Positions 3,970-22,405 of a stretch of 24,962 nucleotides of DNA are shown in pieces. Position 1 is the first letter of the stretch. Every line of letters begins with the position of its first letter. Source of the DNA: a virus. The translations under genes were made by a program, and so were the position numbers. The stretch is taken from IMG/VR virus record IMGVR_UViG_3300033149_002667, positions 1 to 24,962 of that record; one strand, written 5' to 3'. The notes under the pieces were generated by a model. The model saw only the letters and a program-made list of their open reading frames with translations. It was not told where the DNA came from and did no database searches.

Positions 3970-4149
3970 TTACGCAGGTCTCAGATTTCCTTCGACGGTT
4001 TCTTTGAATTCGTATGCCACAATTATGTAAGTGTCTTGGCCTGGCACAGGCTCGCGTATTTCATAGTAGTTGCCACAGTCCACTCGATAATGAGTAGTAT
4101 TATAAGTTGTTCTACCCATCACGCCGTTTTTGATTTTCTCTTTCGGCAT
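3970..4149 (-). CDS. 59-residue hypothetical protein
   Basis: ATG 4149 follows GAAGGAGACATAA. The product has the pattern YNTTHYRVDCGNYYEIREP then GQDTYIIVAYEFKETVEG, which looks like a small beta-sheet protein. Its first 31 bases overlap the zinc-finger gene in another frame. Its 3' end lies in a degenerate copy of that zinc-finger gene's coding DNA (see finding at 3958-4187). Confidence 0.6.
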   Translation of the reverse strand: MPKEKIKNGVMGRTTYNTTHYRVDCGNYYEIREPVPGQDTYIIVAYEFKETVEGNLRPA

Positions 4150-4259
4150 TTATGTCTCCTTCGCAGGTCTCGGATTTCCTGCCCGCACCGCAGGCAAATA
4201 ATTCGGTCGCCACGCAGTGCCGTTGTCGTTTGCTGTTTGGTTTTCTTTGGGCTTTTCAC
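4119..4259 (-). CDS. 46-residue zinc-finger protein
   Basis: GTG 4259 overlaps the previous stop (GTGA), implying coupled translation. The product is basic, with C-L-R-C at 22-25 and H-K-C at 36-38, giving a possible C2HC zinc knuckle. The tail is Lys/Arg-rich (RKRKSKTA). It is probably a nucleic-acid binder, judged only from composition and the cysteine pattern. It overlaps the downstream gene by 31 bases. Confidence 0.5.
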   Translation of the reverse strand: MKSPKKTKQQTTTALRGDRIICLRCGQEIRDLRRRHKCRKRKSKTA

Positions 4260-4465
4260 TCAACCCACTTCTCTAAAGTAGTTTTCGGAGGATGTGCTAA
4301 TGCCTCAAGTGCTTCTGCCGCAATCACAAGAGCACAAGCACCCTCTATTGGATCGCCGACCCATAGCCCACACTCGTCTCGTAGGCAGCGCGGTTGGCTT
4401 TCGGTTTCCAGGCGAGCATCAACAGCGCGGCGGATGCGGTTCATAAATGGGCAAAGTTTAGTCAT
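4256..4465 (-). CDS. Small hypothetical protein
   Basis: 69 residues. ATG 4465 follows AAAAGGATAACCGTA. It has Cys at 5, 27, 32 and 44, an Arg-rich N-terminal helix (FMNRIRRAVDARLE) and a C-terminal helix (ACALVIAAEALEALAH). The start overlaps the upstream S4-domain gene by 8 bases. No family is recognised. Confidence 0.55.
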   Translation of the reverse strand: MTKLCPFMNRIRRAVDARLETESQPRCLRDECGLWVGDPIEGACALVIAAEALEALAHPPKTTLEKWVE

Positions 4466-4778
4466 TACGGTTATCCTTTTCTATTAGTGCAGCCCATCGT
4501 TTCCCAACTCGCAGTATGTCACCGTCAGATAAGTCAATTCGCGTCATCTCGTCTTCCACTATCTGTTCATTGAACTTGACTCCACCTTGGCGGATAACTC
4601 GTCGCGCCTCGCTTTTGCTCTTTGCGAAGCCTGCTATTATAATCAAGTCCACAATCCACATTTGCTGACCAGCGAGTTTTAGGCGGCGAGTTGCGGATTG
4701 GCGTTTAGTCTTCACCGTTTCTGGATCATCGAAGTGTCTGCCGAACATAGCAAAGAATGCGTCTGCGTCTTTCGTCAT
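4458..4778 (-). CDS. Orphan S4 RNA-binding domain, TyrRS-like
   Basis: 106 residues from ATG 4778, whose ATGA overlaps the stop of the small upstream gene. Residues 43-100 form an S4 domain of the kind at the C-terminus of bacterial tyrosyl-tRNA synthetase: G-F-A-K-S-K-S-E-A-R-R-V-I-R-Q-G-G-V, then L-S-D-G-D-I-L-R-V-G-K-R. In that enzyme the domain grips tRNA outside the anticodon. The synthetase catalytic domain is absent, and residues 1-40 are charged helix. It most likely binds structured RNA. The phage's own tRNA- and tmRNA-like elements at 17695 and 15552, or the host ribosome or tRNA, are candidate partners (inference). A TTG start at 4820 is possible but lacks a ribosome binding site. 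Confidence 0.8.
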   Translation of the reverse strand: MTKDADAFFAMFGRHFDDPETVKTKRQSATRRLKLAGQQMWIVDLIIIAGFAKSKSEARRVIRQGGVKFNEQIVEDEMTRIDLSDGDILRVGKRWAALIEKDNRND

Positions 4779-4858
4779 CGTTTCATTCCAAACATCTCTG
4801 TGATGAGGTTCATCAGCCAATCGGTGATGGCTTCAGCAAGTTGGTCAATAAGTCTCAT
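4775..4858 (-). CDS. 27-residue amphipathic peptide
   Basis: ATG 4858 follows AAGGAGACTACCGA. The product (MRLIDQLAEAITDWLMNLIT, then EMFGMKR) is one amphipathic to hydrophobic helix. Both ends overlap neighbours by 4 bases (ATGA), locking it into the chain of coupled genes. It could associate with the membrane, or serve mainly to couple translation to the S4 gene. Confidence 0.5.
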   Translation of the reverse strand: MRLIDQLAEAITDWLMNLITEMFGMKR

Positions 4859-5127
4859 TCGGTAGTCTCCTTGTCTTTATTCGTGTGCTGCTCTTCTATC
4901 AGTGTTGCAGCGGTTACTTGTGGGCCAAGGCTATTGGCTTGCCTCCGCTGCCAATCGTGCTTCGCTCTGAGCGTTTGTAGCCAACCCTCCGCTCTTCTGT
5001 CCGCTTGCGCTGCTGCTTTCATCAGTGCCATAACCCAGACCATAGCCACCAGGTAACCGAGAATGACCAGAATTGTGGTGAGGCTAATACTGTGGAGTAG
5101 AGATTGCAGCCAAGTTACAGGGTTCAT
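4855..5127 (-). CDS. Single-span membrane protein
   Basis: 90 residues from ATG 5127, chosen for GGAGGAAGCGAA upstream; the longer open frame to 5274 is a shadow. A transmembrane helix at about residues 13-35 (LTTILVILGYLVAMVWVMAL) is followed by a charged cytoplasmic-type tail. Size and topology would fit a holin or exclusion-type protein, but nothing specific supports either. Confidence 0.6.
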   Translation of the reverse strand: MNPVTWLQSLLHSISLTTILVILGYLVAMVWVMALMKAAAQADRRAEGWLQTLRAKHDWQRRQANSLGPQVTAATLIEEQHTNKDKETTE

Positions 5128-5474
5128 TTCGCTTCCTCCTTGACTGGTACGCCTTCCAGTCGCCTGATTGCGTTCGTGACCGCATCGCTCTCCTGGATGT
5201 TGAGCGGGAAGTGGTCGCGAAGGTACACCAGAACGCTGATGGCGTTCTGCTCGCTCTCTGTTATCGTTGCCCATTCTTGGGAGAGGCCGCCGGCCGCGTA
5301 GTTGAGCAACTGTACCGCATTGCCGATATGGTCAAGCAGCAGCGTGCGTAGGCCCGATTGTCGGCCTGGCGATAAACCCTCCTCTCGCGCGGATTTGGGC
5401 AACTCTTTGGCTAGGTCAGCGGCCTTCTCCAGCATTGCCACAGCGGCCTTAATCCTGCTGGTTTCTGCTTCCAT
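5124..5474 (-). CDS. Helical hypothetical protein
   Basis: 116 residues from ATG 5474, behind AGGGAGGCAACACAG. It is mostly amphipathic helix (IKAAVAMLEKAADLAKELPK; LLLDHIGNAVQLLNYAAGGL; AISVLVYLRDHF), with no Cys or membrane segment. It overlaps the downstream gene by 4 bases. Function unknown. Confidence 0.6.
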   Translation of the reverse strand: MEAETSRIKAAVAMLEKAADLAKELPKSAREEGLSPGRQSGLRTLLLDHIGNAVQLLNYAAGGLSQEWATITESEQNAISVLVYLRDHFPLNIQESDAVTNAIRRLEGVPVKEEAK

Positions 5475-14615: not shown

Positions 14616-14690
14616 GCAGGGAGGCTGCCAAATAAAAACAAATCTAGCATAGCAGGATTGGACTCTCCTTCGGGGCGGTGGCCTCCCTGC
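14616..14690 (+). ncRNA. 75-nt element closed by a 10-bp stem
   Basis: GCAGGGAGGC (14616-14625) pairs perfectly with GCCTCCCTGC (14681-14690). The 55-base interior holds a small CC-TTCG-GG hairpin (14667-14674). The run TTATTTATTT follows. The loop is too long for an ordinary terminator. It might still be a terminator or attenuator ahead of the kinase gene, or a discrete RNA. It is not a tRNA: there are no arms and no CCA. Confidence 0.4.
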
Positions 14691-14716
14691 TTATTTATTT
14701 GTTATTGGAGGTTAAC

Positions 14717-15565
14717 TTGAACATTTACGTTGTTGGCGATGTGATGTTAGATGTAGAGATGCAGGTGCAGCCTCGCGAGAATTATGAGGGAGCAAGTATT
14801 TGTGTAACGGGAACTAGATGCACTTACTACCCTGGCGGCGCTGCAAATGTGGCGGCTTTGTTGCAAAGATTAGGTTGTGATGTGTCTCTGTTTGGATTAG
14901 TGGGAGCAGATTGGGCAGCAGCGGAATTATACAATTTACTACGAGGCATAAGGATATACTGTCTGGCCTTGCTACCAACCACTACAGTGAAAACCCGAAT
15001 CTATGATGATGGGATGATGATACGAGTGGATTGCGAAGATCATAAGTCTGATAATTGGGCAGTGGAGCGATGTCTGCAAGAGATTGAACATATTCGTCCC
15101 GATTGTGTGGTCTTCTCTGATTATGGCAAGGGTATATTCGGCAGCCATGTGAGGGATACAGTCCAGCGTATTATCAGGCATGAGCCTCCAATCCCGACTG
15201 TGGTAGATCCAAAACCTTGTGAGCACAATGATATTTATGCTGACATCTGGAATGGGTGTACTGTGGCTGTTCCCAACAATAGAGAAATGGACGAGATGGC
15301 TCTTGATGTCCAAAACTTGATTGTTACGCATGGTGCGAATGGCGTTGTAGCTACAGGCAATTTTGACACAACTGCTATTCCTTGTCGCGAGGTTAGTAAT
15401 CCGCAAGTGGTCGGTGCTGGAGATGCTTTTACAGCAGGGATAGCTTCGTCGTTATCTCAGGACGATGATATAGCGAAGGCTGCACGGTTTGCGGTTGAGT
15501 TTGCTACAGATTATGTGTCGCAGCCACGAGTCGAGGCATATAATAAAAGATGGGGGCGAGAATAG
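14717..15565 (+). CDS. PfkB-family sugar kinase, HldE kinase-domain-like
   Basis: 282 residues from TTG 14717, chosen because TTGGAGG lies 5 bases upstream; the frame is open to 14678 but without such a site. The PfkB signatures are present: V-V-G-D-V-M-L-D (5-12), Y-P-G-G-A-A-N-V-A-A (38-47) and V-G-A-G-D-A-F-T-A-G (232-241) with the catalytic Asp236. The D-V-M-L-D and P-G-G-A-A-N-V-A forms, plus F-S-D-Y-G-K-G and V-D-P-K, are those of D-glycero-beta-D-manno-heptose-7-phosphate kinase (RfaE/HldE N-terminal domain), which makes a precursor of LPS heptose. It is slightly shorter than that domain (about 310-320). The last codons overlap the tmRNA-like element. Confidence 0.85.
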   Translation: MNIYVVGDVMLDVEMQVQPRENYEGASICVTGTRCTYYPGGAANVAALLQRLGCDVSLFGLVGADWAAAELYNLLRGIRIYCLALLPTTTVKTRIYDDGMMIRVDCEDHKSDNWAVERCLQEIEHIRPDCVVFSDYGKGIFGSHVRDTVQRIIRHEPPIPTVVDPKPCEHNDIYADIWNGCTVAVPNNREMDEMALDVQNLIVTHGANGVVATGNFDTTAIPCREVSNPQVVGAGDAFTAGIASSLSQDDDIAKAARFAVEFATDYVSQPRVEAYNKRWGRE

Positions 15566-15634
15566 TTTCGACCGCAGTTAAATCCCGAAAGGGCACTCTG
15601 TGGCACGCGGGGGCAGAACCCGCCGCCTCCACCA
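15552..15634 (+). ncRNA. Mini tmRNA-like RNA (tRNA-like domain only)
   Basis: GGGGGCG (15552-15558) pairs with CGCCTCC (15624-15630), giving a 7-bp acceptor. Pair 3-70 is G-U, then come A73 and encoded CCA (15632-15634). G3-U70 with A73 is the alanine identity of tRNA-Ala and tmRNA. After the acceptor comes AGAATAGTTTCGAC, the same length as the tmRNA D-loop segment and carrying its TTTCGAC signature. The T-stem GCGGG/CCCGC (15607-15611, 15619-15623) is the one seen in many tmRNAs, but the 7-base T-loop is GGCAGAA rather than TTCRANN. Between them, only a 6-bp stem (CCGCAG 15572-15577 with CTGTGG 15598-15603) and a CCC-GAAA-GGG hairpin (15584-15593) replace the roughly 270 bases holding the tag frame and pseudoknots. 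It overlaps the kinase gene by 14 bases. Confidence 0.65.
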
Positions 15635-15668: not shown

Positions 15669-16046
15669 ATGAACTGGGAAGAGTTGGGTTTTAAGCATGT
15701 AGAAAAGACGTGGGGTAGTGAAGACTGGCTAGTAAATACTGACGCGTATTGTGCTAAGGTATTAATGGTGAATCAGTATTGTGGGGGCAGCTACCATCAC
15801 CATACACACAAGGATGAAACATTTTTATGTTTAAGCGGATGTGCTCAGTTGCTTCTTGAACACGATGGAAAACATATGGAAGTTCACGAGTTGAGTACGG
15901 GTGGCTCGGTACGTATTCCTCCTGGTACTGCTCATTTACTAATTGGGATTTCAGAAGAGCCGTGCGTTTTGCTGGAAATTTCAACACACCATGACGACGA
16001 AGATGTAGTGCGTCATTTTCGCATAGACGGTGCAGCAGATGGTTAA
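15669..16046 (+). CDS. Cupin protein, sugar-phosphate isomerase-like
   Basis: 125 residues, ATG 15669 behind AGTAGGAGGCTATA. It is a single-domain cupin: motif 1 is G-G-S-Y-H-H-H-T-H-K-D-E-T-F-L-C-L-S-G and motif 2 is I-P-P-G-T-A-H-L-L, so metal ligands His, His, Glu and His are all present. The opening V-E-K-T-W-G-S-E-D-W-L and the ending S-T-H-H-D-D-E-D-V-V-R resemble small cupins of sugar-nucleotide and LPS clusters (mannose-6-phosphate isomerase or lyxose isomerase type), which often lie beside HldE kinases. Together with the upstream kinase it suggests a short sugar-modifying path; the substrate is unknown. Confidence 0.8.
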   Translation: MNWEELGFKHVEKTWGSEDWLVNTDAYCAKVLMVNQYCGGSYHHHTHKDETFLCLSGCAQLLLEHDGKHMEVHELSTGGSVRIPPGTAHLLIGISEEPCVLLEISTHHDDEDVVRHFRIDGAADG

Positions 16047-16054
16047 TACTGATT

Positions 16055-17560
16055 ATGGCTACTAGCACAACATTCTCCGAAACTAGGCGATACACCGAGG
16101 ATGATGTAATCCTTGATCCTGTTGCTTGGTGCGCAGTAGCTAAACCTTGCATTGAAAGTAAGGTGCAAGGCTTAATCCCATTTGAGCCATATGACTTCCA
16201 GAAACAGATTATGCGAGCAGTTGCGGCAGGGAAAGCATATATCATTGATAAGTCTAGCCAGATTGGGGTTTCAACAGCAGTAGTAATAGGATATGCACAT
16301 CAGCTTCTTTACCGAGCCAAGGCGACAGGCATACCATTGCATTGTCATTTTATTGCTAACTCAGAAGAAGTTGCTGTGGAGCGGCTTTTGAAGATTGCTA
16401 AGGTTGCTCTTAGTACAGCGGAATTATCTGCAAGTCAGCAGAAGACTATTGATGGCATCAATCCGAAAACCAAAAACAACGAGATTCGCTATTACACTCC
16501 CCTTGCTCACAATTATATTCGCGCTCACCCCTCGCGAGAAACAGCAGGTCGTAGCTTCGACGGTAATGCGGCACTAATGGAGGAAGTTGCTTATATGCCG
16601 TATGCTGAAGGTGTTTGGCGATCAATGGCTCGCACCCTTGATGATATGGCGAATGCCCCTATATTTTTGGTGAGCACTTATAATGGCGATGGAGATTTTT
16701 TCTGTGAGTGTGTTGACAATCACAAGGAGTTAGGGCTTACTCATTTGCCCATTGACTGGCGGGCGCATCCTGATCGTTGGGGTGATGATAATGGTAAGAC
16801 TTGGAAGGAGCGATCTCAGAAGAAGTTCTTAGGGAGAATCGCAGAGTGGGAAGAGGAGCACGAACTGAAACGAATAAAGAGTGGAGAGCAGGCAATTGAC
16901 GTACGAATAGTAGAAGATTTTGCAACTGATATAGAGTTTTTAGGCCATAGCCCTATTGCTTCTCACCGTTATAGCAAAGGGGTAGATATTGCTGGTGCTG
17001 GTCGAGATAATACGGTGCATACCGTTATTGACCTTCACGTACGACCTCCTCAGGTTGTTTTTCAGCGTAGCTATGCTCGTCAGTCAACGACGGACAAGGT
17101 AGCAGCCATTGAAGCACTAGACAAGAGATGGCCTGGTTCATTATTTATTGATGGCACTAAAGATAGTGCAATACCTGCATTGGTAGATGCTCGACAAAAG
17201 ACAGCAGTAAACTTCACGGCTGGGCATCGAGCAACTGAGCGAGTAGATCGTGTGGAAGGACTGCAATGGCGCAATGTTCCTCGCGGTGAGATGTTGAGTT
17301 GGTTGATAGCTAATCTGGAAAGCGGTGCTCTTATTGCTCATCTGGAGGAGTTCCCTGAATTACGAGAGGCCTTAAGAACAGCTCGTACAGGTGTGGGCGA
17401 AAAGAAGCAGGGAAGAAATGTTGATTTCTTGGATTCGTTGATGTTGGCGAATTTGGCCTTGACAAAGCGAGTTCGAAGAGGATATGATAGGGGCGAAAAG
17501 TTGGTTGGGGGAGTACCCTCTTCTGATAAGCTGAAGAAGTTACTAGGAACTAGATGGTAA
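16055..17560 (+). CDS. Large terminase subunit (TerL)
   Basis: 501 residues. TerL is the ATP-driven motor and nuclease that packages and cuts phage DNA. Visible parts: adenine-binding F-E-P-Y-D-F-Q-K-Q-I (43-52), Walker A variant D-K-S-S-Q-I-G-V-S-T (65-74), Walker B A-A-L-M-E-E-V-A-Y (172-180) with catalytic Glu, coupling motif F-L-V-S-T-Y-N-G (204-211). The RNase H-like nuclease has acidic residues at Asp311 (G-V-D-I-A-G-A-G-R-D), Asp366 (F-I-D-G-T-K-D) and Asp457/460 (N-V-D-F-L-D-S). K-S-x-Q-I-G-x-S-T is the Mu gp28-like form. Length is normal. It lies directly upstream of the portal region, separated by a small basic gene and a tRNA-like element. Confidence 0.9.
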   Translation: MATSTTFSETRRYTEDDVILDPVAWCAVAKPCIESKVQGLIPFEPYDFQKQIMRAVAAGKAYIIDKSSQIGVSTAVVIGYAHQLLYRAKATGIPLHCHFIANSEEVAVERLLKIAKVALSTAELSASQQKTIDGINPKTKNNEIRYYTPLAHNYIRAHPSRETAGRSFDGNAALMEEVAYMPYAEGVWRSMARTLDDMANAPIFLVSTYNGDGDFFCECVDNHKELGLTHLPIDWRAHPDRWGDDNGKTWKERSQKKFLGRIAEWEEEHELKRIKSGEQAIDVRIVEDFATDIEFLGHSPIASHRYSKGVDIAGAGRDNTVHTVIDLHVRPPQVVFQRSYARQSTTDKVAAIEALDKRWPGSLFIDGTKDSAIPALVDARQKTAVNFTAGHRATERVDRVEGLQWRNVPRGEMLSWLIANLESGALIAHLEEFPELREALRTARTGVGEKKQGRNVDFLDSLMLANLALTKRVRRGYDRGEKLVGGVPSSDKLKKLLGTRW

Positions 17561-17694: not shown

Positions 17695-17768
17695 TGCGGG
17701 TTGGGCCAGAAGTAAGCCGCCAGCATCATAAGCTGGAGACCTCGGTGCAATTCCGAGACCCGCTACCA
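17695..17768 (+). tRNA. Divergent tRNA with CAU anticodon, initiator-like features
   Basis: Acceptor TGCGGGT/ACCCGCT (17695-17701, 17758-17764) with six pairs and a T1-T72 mismatch, then A73 and encoded CCA (17766-17768). D-arm GGC/GCC with loop CAGAAGTAA, which lacks the G18-G19 pair. Anticodon arm CCAGC/GCTGG with loop ATCATAA: U33, anticodon CAU at 17727-17729. Variable loop AGAC. T-arm CTCGG/CCGAG with loop TGCAATT (G in place of U55). A 1-72 mismatch and a purine11-pyrimidine24 pair (G11-C24) are bacterial initiator traits, but the three G-C pairs of the initiator anticodon stem are missing. It may be a Met or lysidine-type Ile tRNA, or a non-standard effector. Confidence 0.7.
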
Positions 17769-21796: not shown

Positions 21797-21808
21797 GAGG
21801 TGAGCAGG

Positions 21809-22405
21809 ATGACAAAGTTTGTTAATCGGTTTCCGAACTTTCCTGCAATAGCTGGCGAGGACATAACAGCAGGAGAAGCTGTGAAGATTGATACAACTAG
21901 CGGCTTAGCTTATCTAGCTTGTGCTGGTGCAGGCATTGAGGAACTGCCTTGTGTGGGATTTGCCGAAACAACTGTTGCTGAGGGCGAAGTAGTTGAAGTC
22001 AAACATATGGGCATAATGCACCAGGCTCCTGTTTCGTTGTTTTCTGGTGATCTTGTGTATTTGTCCAATACCCCAGGTGCAGTTTCGGCAACAGCTGGTG
22101 ATACTTCTCAGATTGTGGGGATGGCAATTCCACTAGAGCCGCCACAGACGCCAGGTAGTCCGACTAATAGATTCCTTATCTGTATTGAGCAAATAGCTAG
22201 TGATACACAGCAGAGTAGTAGTAGTTCTAGTTCGAGTAGTAGTAGCAGTAGCAGCAGTAGCTCCTCCTCGGAGAGTTCGAGCAGCTCGAGCAGTAGTTCG
22301 TCTAGCTCAAGCAGTAGCAGCAGCTCGGAGAGTTCGAGTAGCAGCTCGTCTAGCAGCAGCTCGGAGAGTTCGAGTAGCAGTTCAAGTTCAAGTGCAGGTG
22401 CATAA
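21809..22405 (+). CDS. Decoration-type protein, copy 2, with poly-serine tail
   Basis: 198 residues from ATG 21809, behind AGAGGTGAGCAGG; a GTG at 21800 is less likely. Residues 1-125 are a paralogue of the previous protein (shared I-T-A-G-E-A-V, G-L-A-Y-L-A-C-A-G-A-G, E-L-P-C-V-G-F-A-E-T, G-E-V-V-E-V-K). From about residue 136 a stretch of some 60 residues is almost only serine, broken by a few Glu, ending SAGA. Mixed AGT, AGC, TCG, TCT and TCC codons show that serine itself is selected. The tail may be a flexible spike on the capsid, a glycosylation target, or an adhesive linker. Confidence 0.7.
   Translation: MTKFVNRFPNFPAIAGEDITAGEAVKIDTTSGLAYLACAGAGIEELPCVGFAETTVAEGEVVEVKHMGIMHQAPVSLFSGDLVYLSNTPGAVSATAGDTSQIVGMAIPLEPPQTPGSPTNRFLICIEQIASDTQQSSSSSSSSSSSSSSSSSSSESSSSSSSSSSSSSSSSSSESSSSSSSSSSSESSSSSSSSSAGA
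22209..22395 (+). repeat. Poly-serine codon tract with three 14-base repeats
   Basis: TCGGAGAGTTCGAG occurs at 22268-22281, 22325-22338 and 22361-22374 within runs of serine codons, giving the E-S-S-S-S units. The tract could expand or shrink by slippage or recombination, changing tail length. Confidence 0.8.

Follow-up and report, generated by a model that had tools for sequence, protein, structure and literature searches.

Trans-translation is nearly universal in bacteria; AlaRS charges tmRNA through its G3-U70 pair, and SmpB and EF-Tu bind its tRNA-like domain (TLD). G3-U70 is the determinant of this charging (PMC3985003, PMC8363625), and on the SmpB side A334 forms, together with A15 and U17, a pocket for Trp122, U17 and G19 contact the protein, and the change G19C abolishes SmpB binding (PMC8363625). 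A tmRNA fragment of T. thermophilus has also been seen on the ribosome with SmpB and EF-Tu.

The closest described system is Mycobacterium phage DS6A (Mao et al. 2009; PMC4131195; PMC11915505), which is reported to have a TLD-only tmRNA. According to these sources a similar molecule strongly inhibits E. coli tmRNA, perhaps by titrating SmpB, and charging is unnecessary for this inhibition. The mitochondrial tmRNAs of jakobids and oomycetes, and the approximately 65-bp plastid tmRNAs of Mallomonadaceae, likewise keep a TLD and have no tag reading frame, and the tagless mitochondrial molecules are thought still to help with incomplete mRNAs. Permuted two-piece phage tmRNAs, as in Melnitz and the group of Stenotrophomonas phage Mendera, have a phage-encoded TLD and encode a tag.

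The window, by which we mean the whole stretch of 24,962 nt that was analysed, carries an 83-nt element that has features in common with each of these. Compared by description, it is phage-borne and little more than a TLD, as in DS6A, but DS6A is recorded as a single phage case, whereas the element in the window has a GGCAGAA T-loop and is a member of a widespread viral family. With standard one-piece tmRNA (RF00023) it shares the acceptor with G3-U70, the TTTCGAC D-segment, the start of P2, a GGAC-type linker, the T-arm and the CCA; it differs in having no tag frame, resume codon or pseudoknots, in a P2 that is capped after 6 bp, and in a length of about 80 instead of about 360 nt. The organellar molecules are also tagless, but those of mitochondria mostly come from permuted genes and work with a nuclear-encoded SmpB, while the window element is viral, unpermuted and found in cells expected to have a complete tmRNA. 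With the permuted phage tmRNAs it shares a 3' TLD stretch of about 33 nt, but its 5' half precedes its 3' half and only a short hairpin lies between them.

The TLD-only tmRNA of DS6A and the tagless organellar cousins are thus already known. Mentions of DS6A were the only ones of phage TLD-only or decoy tmRNAs found in the literature searched. Within that literature the breadth of the family, its restriction to viruses, the fixed AlaRS and SmpB determinants, the D-loop/T-loop class and the unannotated copies in Streptomyces phages appear to be new, and an earlier report of more cases is possible.

Position and fold of the element

It is nearly certain that positions 15552-15634 of the window are the gene of a TLD-only tmRNA, consisting of the TLD and a capped P2 helix; we call it a mini-tmRNA. 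The linker base at 15605 is presumably the equivalent of A334, as it was placed by counting along the E. coli tmRNA numbering. The element and its neighbours are arranged as follows.

14678-15565, plus strand: gene for a PfkB-family sugar kinase; its last 14 nt, the stop codon among them, are also the first 14 of the RNA
15552-15634, plus strand: complete mini-tmRNA gene (near certain; RF00023 match, 50.3 bits with model R1, syntenic homologues)
15552-15558, plus strand: 5' strand of the acceptor stem, GGGGGCG, with G3 at 15554
15559-15572, plus strand: tmRNA-type D-segment, AGAATAGTTTCGAC, with U17 at 15568 and G19 at 15570 (E. coli numbering)
15572-15577, plus strand: 5' strand of the P2 helix, CCGCAG
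15584-15593, plus strand: GNRA-capped inner hairpin, CCC-GAAA-GGG, in place of the tag and pseudoknot region
15598-15603, plus strand: 3' strand of the P2 helix, CTGTGG
15605, plus strand: A taken as equivalent to E. coli tmRNA A334 of the SmpB Trp122 pocket (homologue alignment and PMC8363625)
15607-15623, plus strand: T-arm, with the stem GCGGG/CCCGC (15607-15611 and 15619-15623) and the loop GGCAGAA (15612-15618)
15624-15634, plus strand: 3' strand of the acceptor, CGCCTCC, with U70 at 15628, followed by A73 and an encoded CCA
15669-16046, plus strand: gene for a cupin of the mannose-6-phosphate isomerase C-terminal type, beginning 35 nt past the CCA
16055-17560, plus strand: gene for the terminase large subunit (PHROG 2, E 9e-14)

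All the features listed in the initial annotation (acceptor, G3-U70, A73, CCA, D-segment, P2, GAAA hairpin and T-stem) are present at this place, and its view of a tmRNA reduced to the TLD agrees with RF00023, which covers the element end to end, from model position 1 to 374, with about 300 positions missing. The free fold consists of the 7-bp acceptor (GGGGGCG/CGCCTCC, with G3-U70), the 6-bp P2, CCC-GAAA-GGG and the 5-bp T-stem (-36.5 kcal/mol, z -2.6). The mRNA-like domain with its resume codon and tag peptide is absent from these 83 nt, and so are the pseudoknots PK1-PK4, the region of which is missing in both the RF00023 alignment and the fold. A search of the whole record found no full-length tmRNA elsewhere. 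Two other classifications were tried and rejected: the order of a 5' piece followed by a 3' piece is not that of a permuted tmRNA (RF04321), with which the match is partial (20.8 bits), and for a tRNA-Ala there is neither an ARAGORN nor an Rfam tRNA match at the locus, and the fold has no cloverleaf anticodon arm.

When 201 nt were searched with RF00023, the element scored 26.7 bits (E 2e-9) as compared to a gathering score of 47, which all 30 of the relatives with a canonical T-loop that were searched exceed. The mini-tmRNA escapes annotation because the window element is missed by ARAGORN, by Rfam at gathering thresholds and by a one-genome search. No promoter or terminator of its own was found at the element, in a scan that performed at about chance level.

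The contig is viral, with terminase, portal and capsid genes. The PfkB-family sugar kinase and the mannose-6-phosphate-isomerase-type cupin that flank the RNA are an unusual sugar-metabolism pair for a packaging operon. Further downstream, at 21800-22405, a protein is encoded with a terminal long serine tract and periodic glutamates, and its gene adjoins a similar, smaller one that has no such tract.

Relatives found through the terminase

Relatives were sought with the terminase large subunit, independently of the RNA. This gave four viral contigs with terminases 82-87% identical to that of the window, and the element is present in all four at the same place; in L001, L002 and L003 it was seen upstream of the terminase, and the copy in L004 was then recovered by the covariance model. 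The syntenic homologues located with that model are:

L001, 2900-2982
L003, 5473-5555
L004, 2285-2365

A gene resembling the PfkB-family kinase is also found upstream of the element in L001 and L004. All 21 pairs are kept across the window, L001 and L003, with double substitutions at five of them, two in the T-stem and three in P2, where 6/6 pairs are retained in both relatives. The hairpin loop stays GNRA, GAAA in the window and GUAA in L001. The initial annotation had suggested looking for the same element in related phages and had named a loss of stem pairing there as what would speak against it; the element recurs in synteny, and the pairing is conserved with compensating changes.

A family of viral mini-tmRNAs

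A first search pattern gave 50 listed matches, about 36 of them with a 5' acceptor; the other 14 or so had no acceptor and were dropped as chance. A second pattern placed no constraint on P2, the T-stem, the linker and position 70, nor on positions 5-6 and 67-68 of the acceptor; it imposed acceptor positions 1-4, 7, 66, 69 and 71-73, the CCA and most of TTCGAC, which are excluded as evidence. It matched at least 120 loci in the 2.9 million viral contigs searched, while the same pattern with TTCGAC scrambled gave 0 matches. Since the control is empty and the element is syntenic in four relatives found through their terminases, the window element is not a product of chance.

Applied to 84,980 prokaryote genomes, the pattern matched at no more than three loci. 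The first lies on a single-cell contig of Prochlorococcus, which agrees with an IMG/VR contig both in length and in the position of the element. The second is on a contig with phage terminase and portal genes that was binned with Hydrogenophaga. The third is on a Clostridia contig that also has chromosomal genes; terminase and portal genes lie about 13 kb from the element there, which makes it a prophage. This Clostridia lysogen has its own ssrA and smpB intact elsewhere.

The records that carry a mini-tmRNA have terminases of at least three families (PHROG 2, 9 and 38), and the genes next to the mini-tmRNA vary between terminase, DnaB helicase, rIIA and ribonucleotide reductase, which implies that the family spans unrelated tailed phages. 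Exactly one copy was present in each of the 41 records searched whole (E 1e-5). Full-length tmRNA was found in 0/30 mini-tmRNA records and a viral SmpB in 0/40, so that the partner must be the SmpB of the host. On one phage contig, L037, two mini-tmRNAs were observed, at 1562-1638 and 5108-5183, both on the minus strand, the second with a bulged T-stem.

Among the matches listed 106 are distinct; with nested alternatives removed, and the window and L005 added, they made 98 sequences, which fell into 62 clusters at about 85% similarity. In an alignment of 67 sequences, fitted to the covariance model, 96.6% of the pair cells are standard pairs, as compared to 67.4% after shuffling, despite heavy double substitution, and the covariation score is 0.737 against 0.159 for shuffled sequences and 0.09-0.124 with slid partners. 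RNAalifold recovers identical helices with no structure supplied. An alignment-free test of the arms in the 62 clusters gave 88% pairing in P2 (45% shuffled, z 17) and 99.7% in the T-stem (64% shuffled). Judged on these sequences, the mini-tmRNA genes are a virus-restricted class under strong structural selection.

The co-variation also bears on the idea that the element is an attachment-site scar, i.e. ssrA ends left by a prophage integrated into ssrA. The 3' ends of ssrA are common attB sites, several of the temperate-phage BLAST matches in INPHARED are confined to a short 3' stretch and may be of the att type, and the window does encode an integrase. However, the latter lies about 12 kb from the mini-tmRNA, a scar needs only the 3' end, yet both halves, joined by the short P2, co-vary in the 67 sequences, and the Clostridia lysogen keeps, on a separate contig, an intact host ssrA with a different sequence. 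We give a scar hardly any probability; by its sequence and that of its homologues the window element is a conserved gene.

An improbable reading, although less so than a scar, is that the RNA punctuates the transcript or mimics a tRNA in some other way, as a site of cleavage or signalling (processing by RNase P/Z, packaging, replication) unrelated to trans-translation. The element is tightly packed between genes, in the L006 group with a 1-nt overlap upstream and an ATG 13 nt downstream, and it is often near terminase genes. But the neighbours vary by lineage, only 9/62 clusters have the element within 200 nt of a tRNA, and processing has no need of U70, TTCGAC, the A334 equivalent or P2, all of which are fixed or maintained as pairs.

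Fixed determinants of charging and SmpB contact

Among the distinct matches listed, U70 is present in 106/106, always with G3, and position 70 was free in the pattern. The third base of the linker, the A334 equivalent, is A in 105/106, the linker also being free; the one sequence without it is apparently L167, whose register is displaced by an inserted C. Position 8, unlike the features for charging and SmpB contact, is evenly mixed among the homologues. The window element itself has U17 and G19, the latter within TTCGAC, and as read from its nucleotides it keeps both the AlaRS determinant G3-U70/A73 and the predicted SmpB-contact nucleotides, in line with the alanine identity and the SmpB contacts that had been proposed for it.

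An effect centred on AlaRS, in which the RNA sequesters alanine, AlaRS or EF-Tu, or supplies Ala-RNA elsewhere, independently of SmpB, would account for the fixed U70 and A73, the former at a free position. It would not account for the conservation of the SmpB-facing A334 equivalent and of TTCGAC, which are needless for AlaRS, and a tRNA-Ala gene would do equally well; we therefore consider such an effect very improbable.

The variant T-loop

T-loops of the form GGCAG[AT]A were found by pattern in 29 contigs, that of L004 included. Together with the window the set comprises nine distinct sequences from five lineages, with T-stems that are intact and differ from each other. An A stands immediately before GTTTCGA in 9/9 of these variants as compared to 3/61 canonical clusters (Fisher p 6e-6, the five lineages being taken as independent). 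The T-loop of the window had been called diverged, and it does depart from the canonical form, but not by random drift: it is a recurrent variant accompanied by a change in the D-loop, and its recurrence in five lineages with this co-change rules out decay. We infer that the GGCAG class is a coordinated change of the contact between D-loop and T-loop, from G18-U55 to A18-G55, and the departure may bear on the predicted binding of EF-Tu or SmpB.

The alternative that the diverged loop binds an S4 protein instead had also been raised. An S4 domain is present in 0/41 other mini-tmRNA viral records, and the variant recurs with the D-loop co-change, which speaks against such a partner. The protein in question, of about 119 aa and encoded at 4458-4820 on the minus strand of the window, is similar to the C-terminal domain of tyrosyl-tRNA synthetase.

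The window also has a tRNA-Met(CAT) at 17695-17768, between the terminase and portal genes. Its D-loop is without the usual GG, and its T-loop, TGCAATT, has G at position 55, which it shares with the GGCAG mini-tmRNAs. The relatives have a tRNA-Met and a tRNA-Pro at the same place.

Proposed function

The best explanation of the element, to which we assign a probability of about 0.6, is that it is an alanylated, SmpB-binding RNA that would antagonise the trans-translation of the host. The mini-tmRNA would be excised from the transcript of the packaging operon, charged with alanine by the host AlaRS, and bound by the host SmpB and EF-Tu. It may then compete with the host tmRNA and probably enter stalled ribosomes in its place, where the nascent chain could be accepted on its alanine with no resume codon or tag offered. 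Trans-translation would in this way be titrated or dead-ended, and SsrA-tagging suppressed during infection.

The inhibition described for the DS6A-like molecule proceeds without charging, so an invariant G3-U70 calls for an additional function of the alanine. Under natural conditions the amino acid would seem to matter, perhaps for capturing the nascent chain. The fixed pair thus predicts importance of the charged form, against a simple model of SmpB titration.

The missing tag alone does not mean inhibition, since tagless tmRNAs of mitochondria are regarded as helpful. The chief rival is accordingly a tagless rescue, in which the alanylated mini-tmRNA and host SmpB take over the nascent chain of stalled ribosomes, and its release, untagged, would come about through drop-off, Pth or a release factor; ribosomes would be kept running late in infection and phage proteins spared from ClpXP. 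In favour of this, invariant AlaRS and SmpB determinants imply that the molecule is active and charged, mitochondria have tagless tmRNAs alongside SmpB, and L155 encodes a PCRF/RF-1 (GGQ) protein (4093-4758, minus strand) about 1.1 kb from its mini-tmRNA. This reading predicts release, however, and is unsupported by co-occurrence with release factors, as an RF-1 domain was found in 0/40 mini-tmRNA viral records. Neither is there a known step that finishes rescue without a resume codon, and in E. coli the DS6A-like TLD molecule was inhibitory to tmRNA. We consider tagless rescue unlikely, although it is the most probable of the alternatives. L155 is a phage contig binned with Hydrogenophaga, and its mini-tmRNA sits between tRNA genes.

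To extend antagonism from the window to the whole family is a more tentative step, which we rate at slightly below even odds: mini-tmRNAs would be a widespread, virus-specific class that interferes with ribosome rescue in many lineages of tailed phages. The invariant charging determinant points to a substitute that is charged but tagless and takes over the nascent chain on stalled ribosomes, rather than to a passive SmpB sponge, and the window would belong to a sub-class with a re-engineered D-loop/T-loop contact (GGCAG[AT]A, A before GTTTCGA). Carriers number at least 120 viral contigs of many lineages, and in cellular genomes the gene is essentially confined to phage DNA; what was a single oddity would become a general means by which phages act against, or within, ribosome rescue. 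The mini-tmRNA would also be a minimal natural candidate inhibitor of a proposed antibiotic target.

Cultured phages and permuted tmRNAs

Unannotated mini-tmRNAs are present in the cultured Streptomyces phages LuckySocke (L194, 1491-1571; 17977-18057 of OR725497.1), pSt2308 (L195, 591-671) and GiJojo (L196, 591-671). These carriers make the question of a tagless phage tmRNA directly testable. Their copies have no encoded CCA, so CCA addition would be needed to complete the 3' end. A degenerate mini-tmRNA is present in Streptomyces phage Alone3 (L059, 1501-1580).

A BLAST search of INPHARED with the element gave mostly matches to the 3' part of the TLD. In ten of 12 named records taken from these matches, the match lies in a permuted, tagged tmRNA according to ARAGORN; in SirSheldon, which is also among the 12, no mini form was found at the match, and the remaining record is that of Alone3 with its degenerate copy. 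The permuted, tag-encoding tmRNAs that ARAGORN predicts in L054, L055, L056, L060, L062, L064 and L065 are unannotated in these named phages. In Tunturiibacter phage Tunturi_4 (L063, 1118-1970) an annotated release-factor gene with an RF-1 domain lies directly upstream of an unannotated, permuted two-piece tmRNA.
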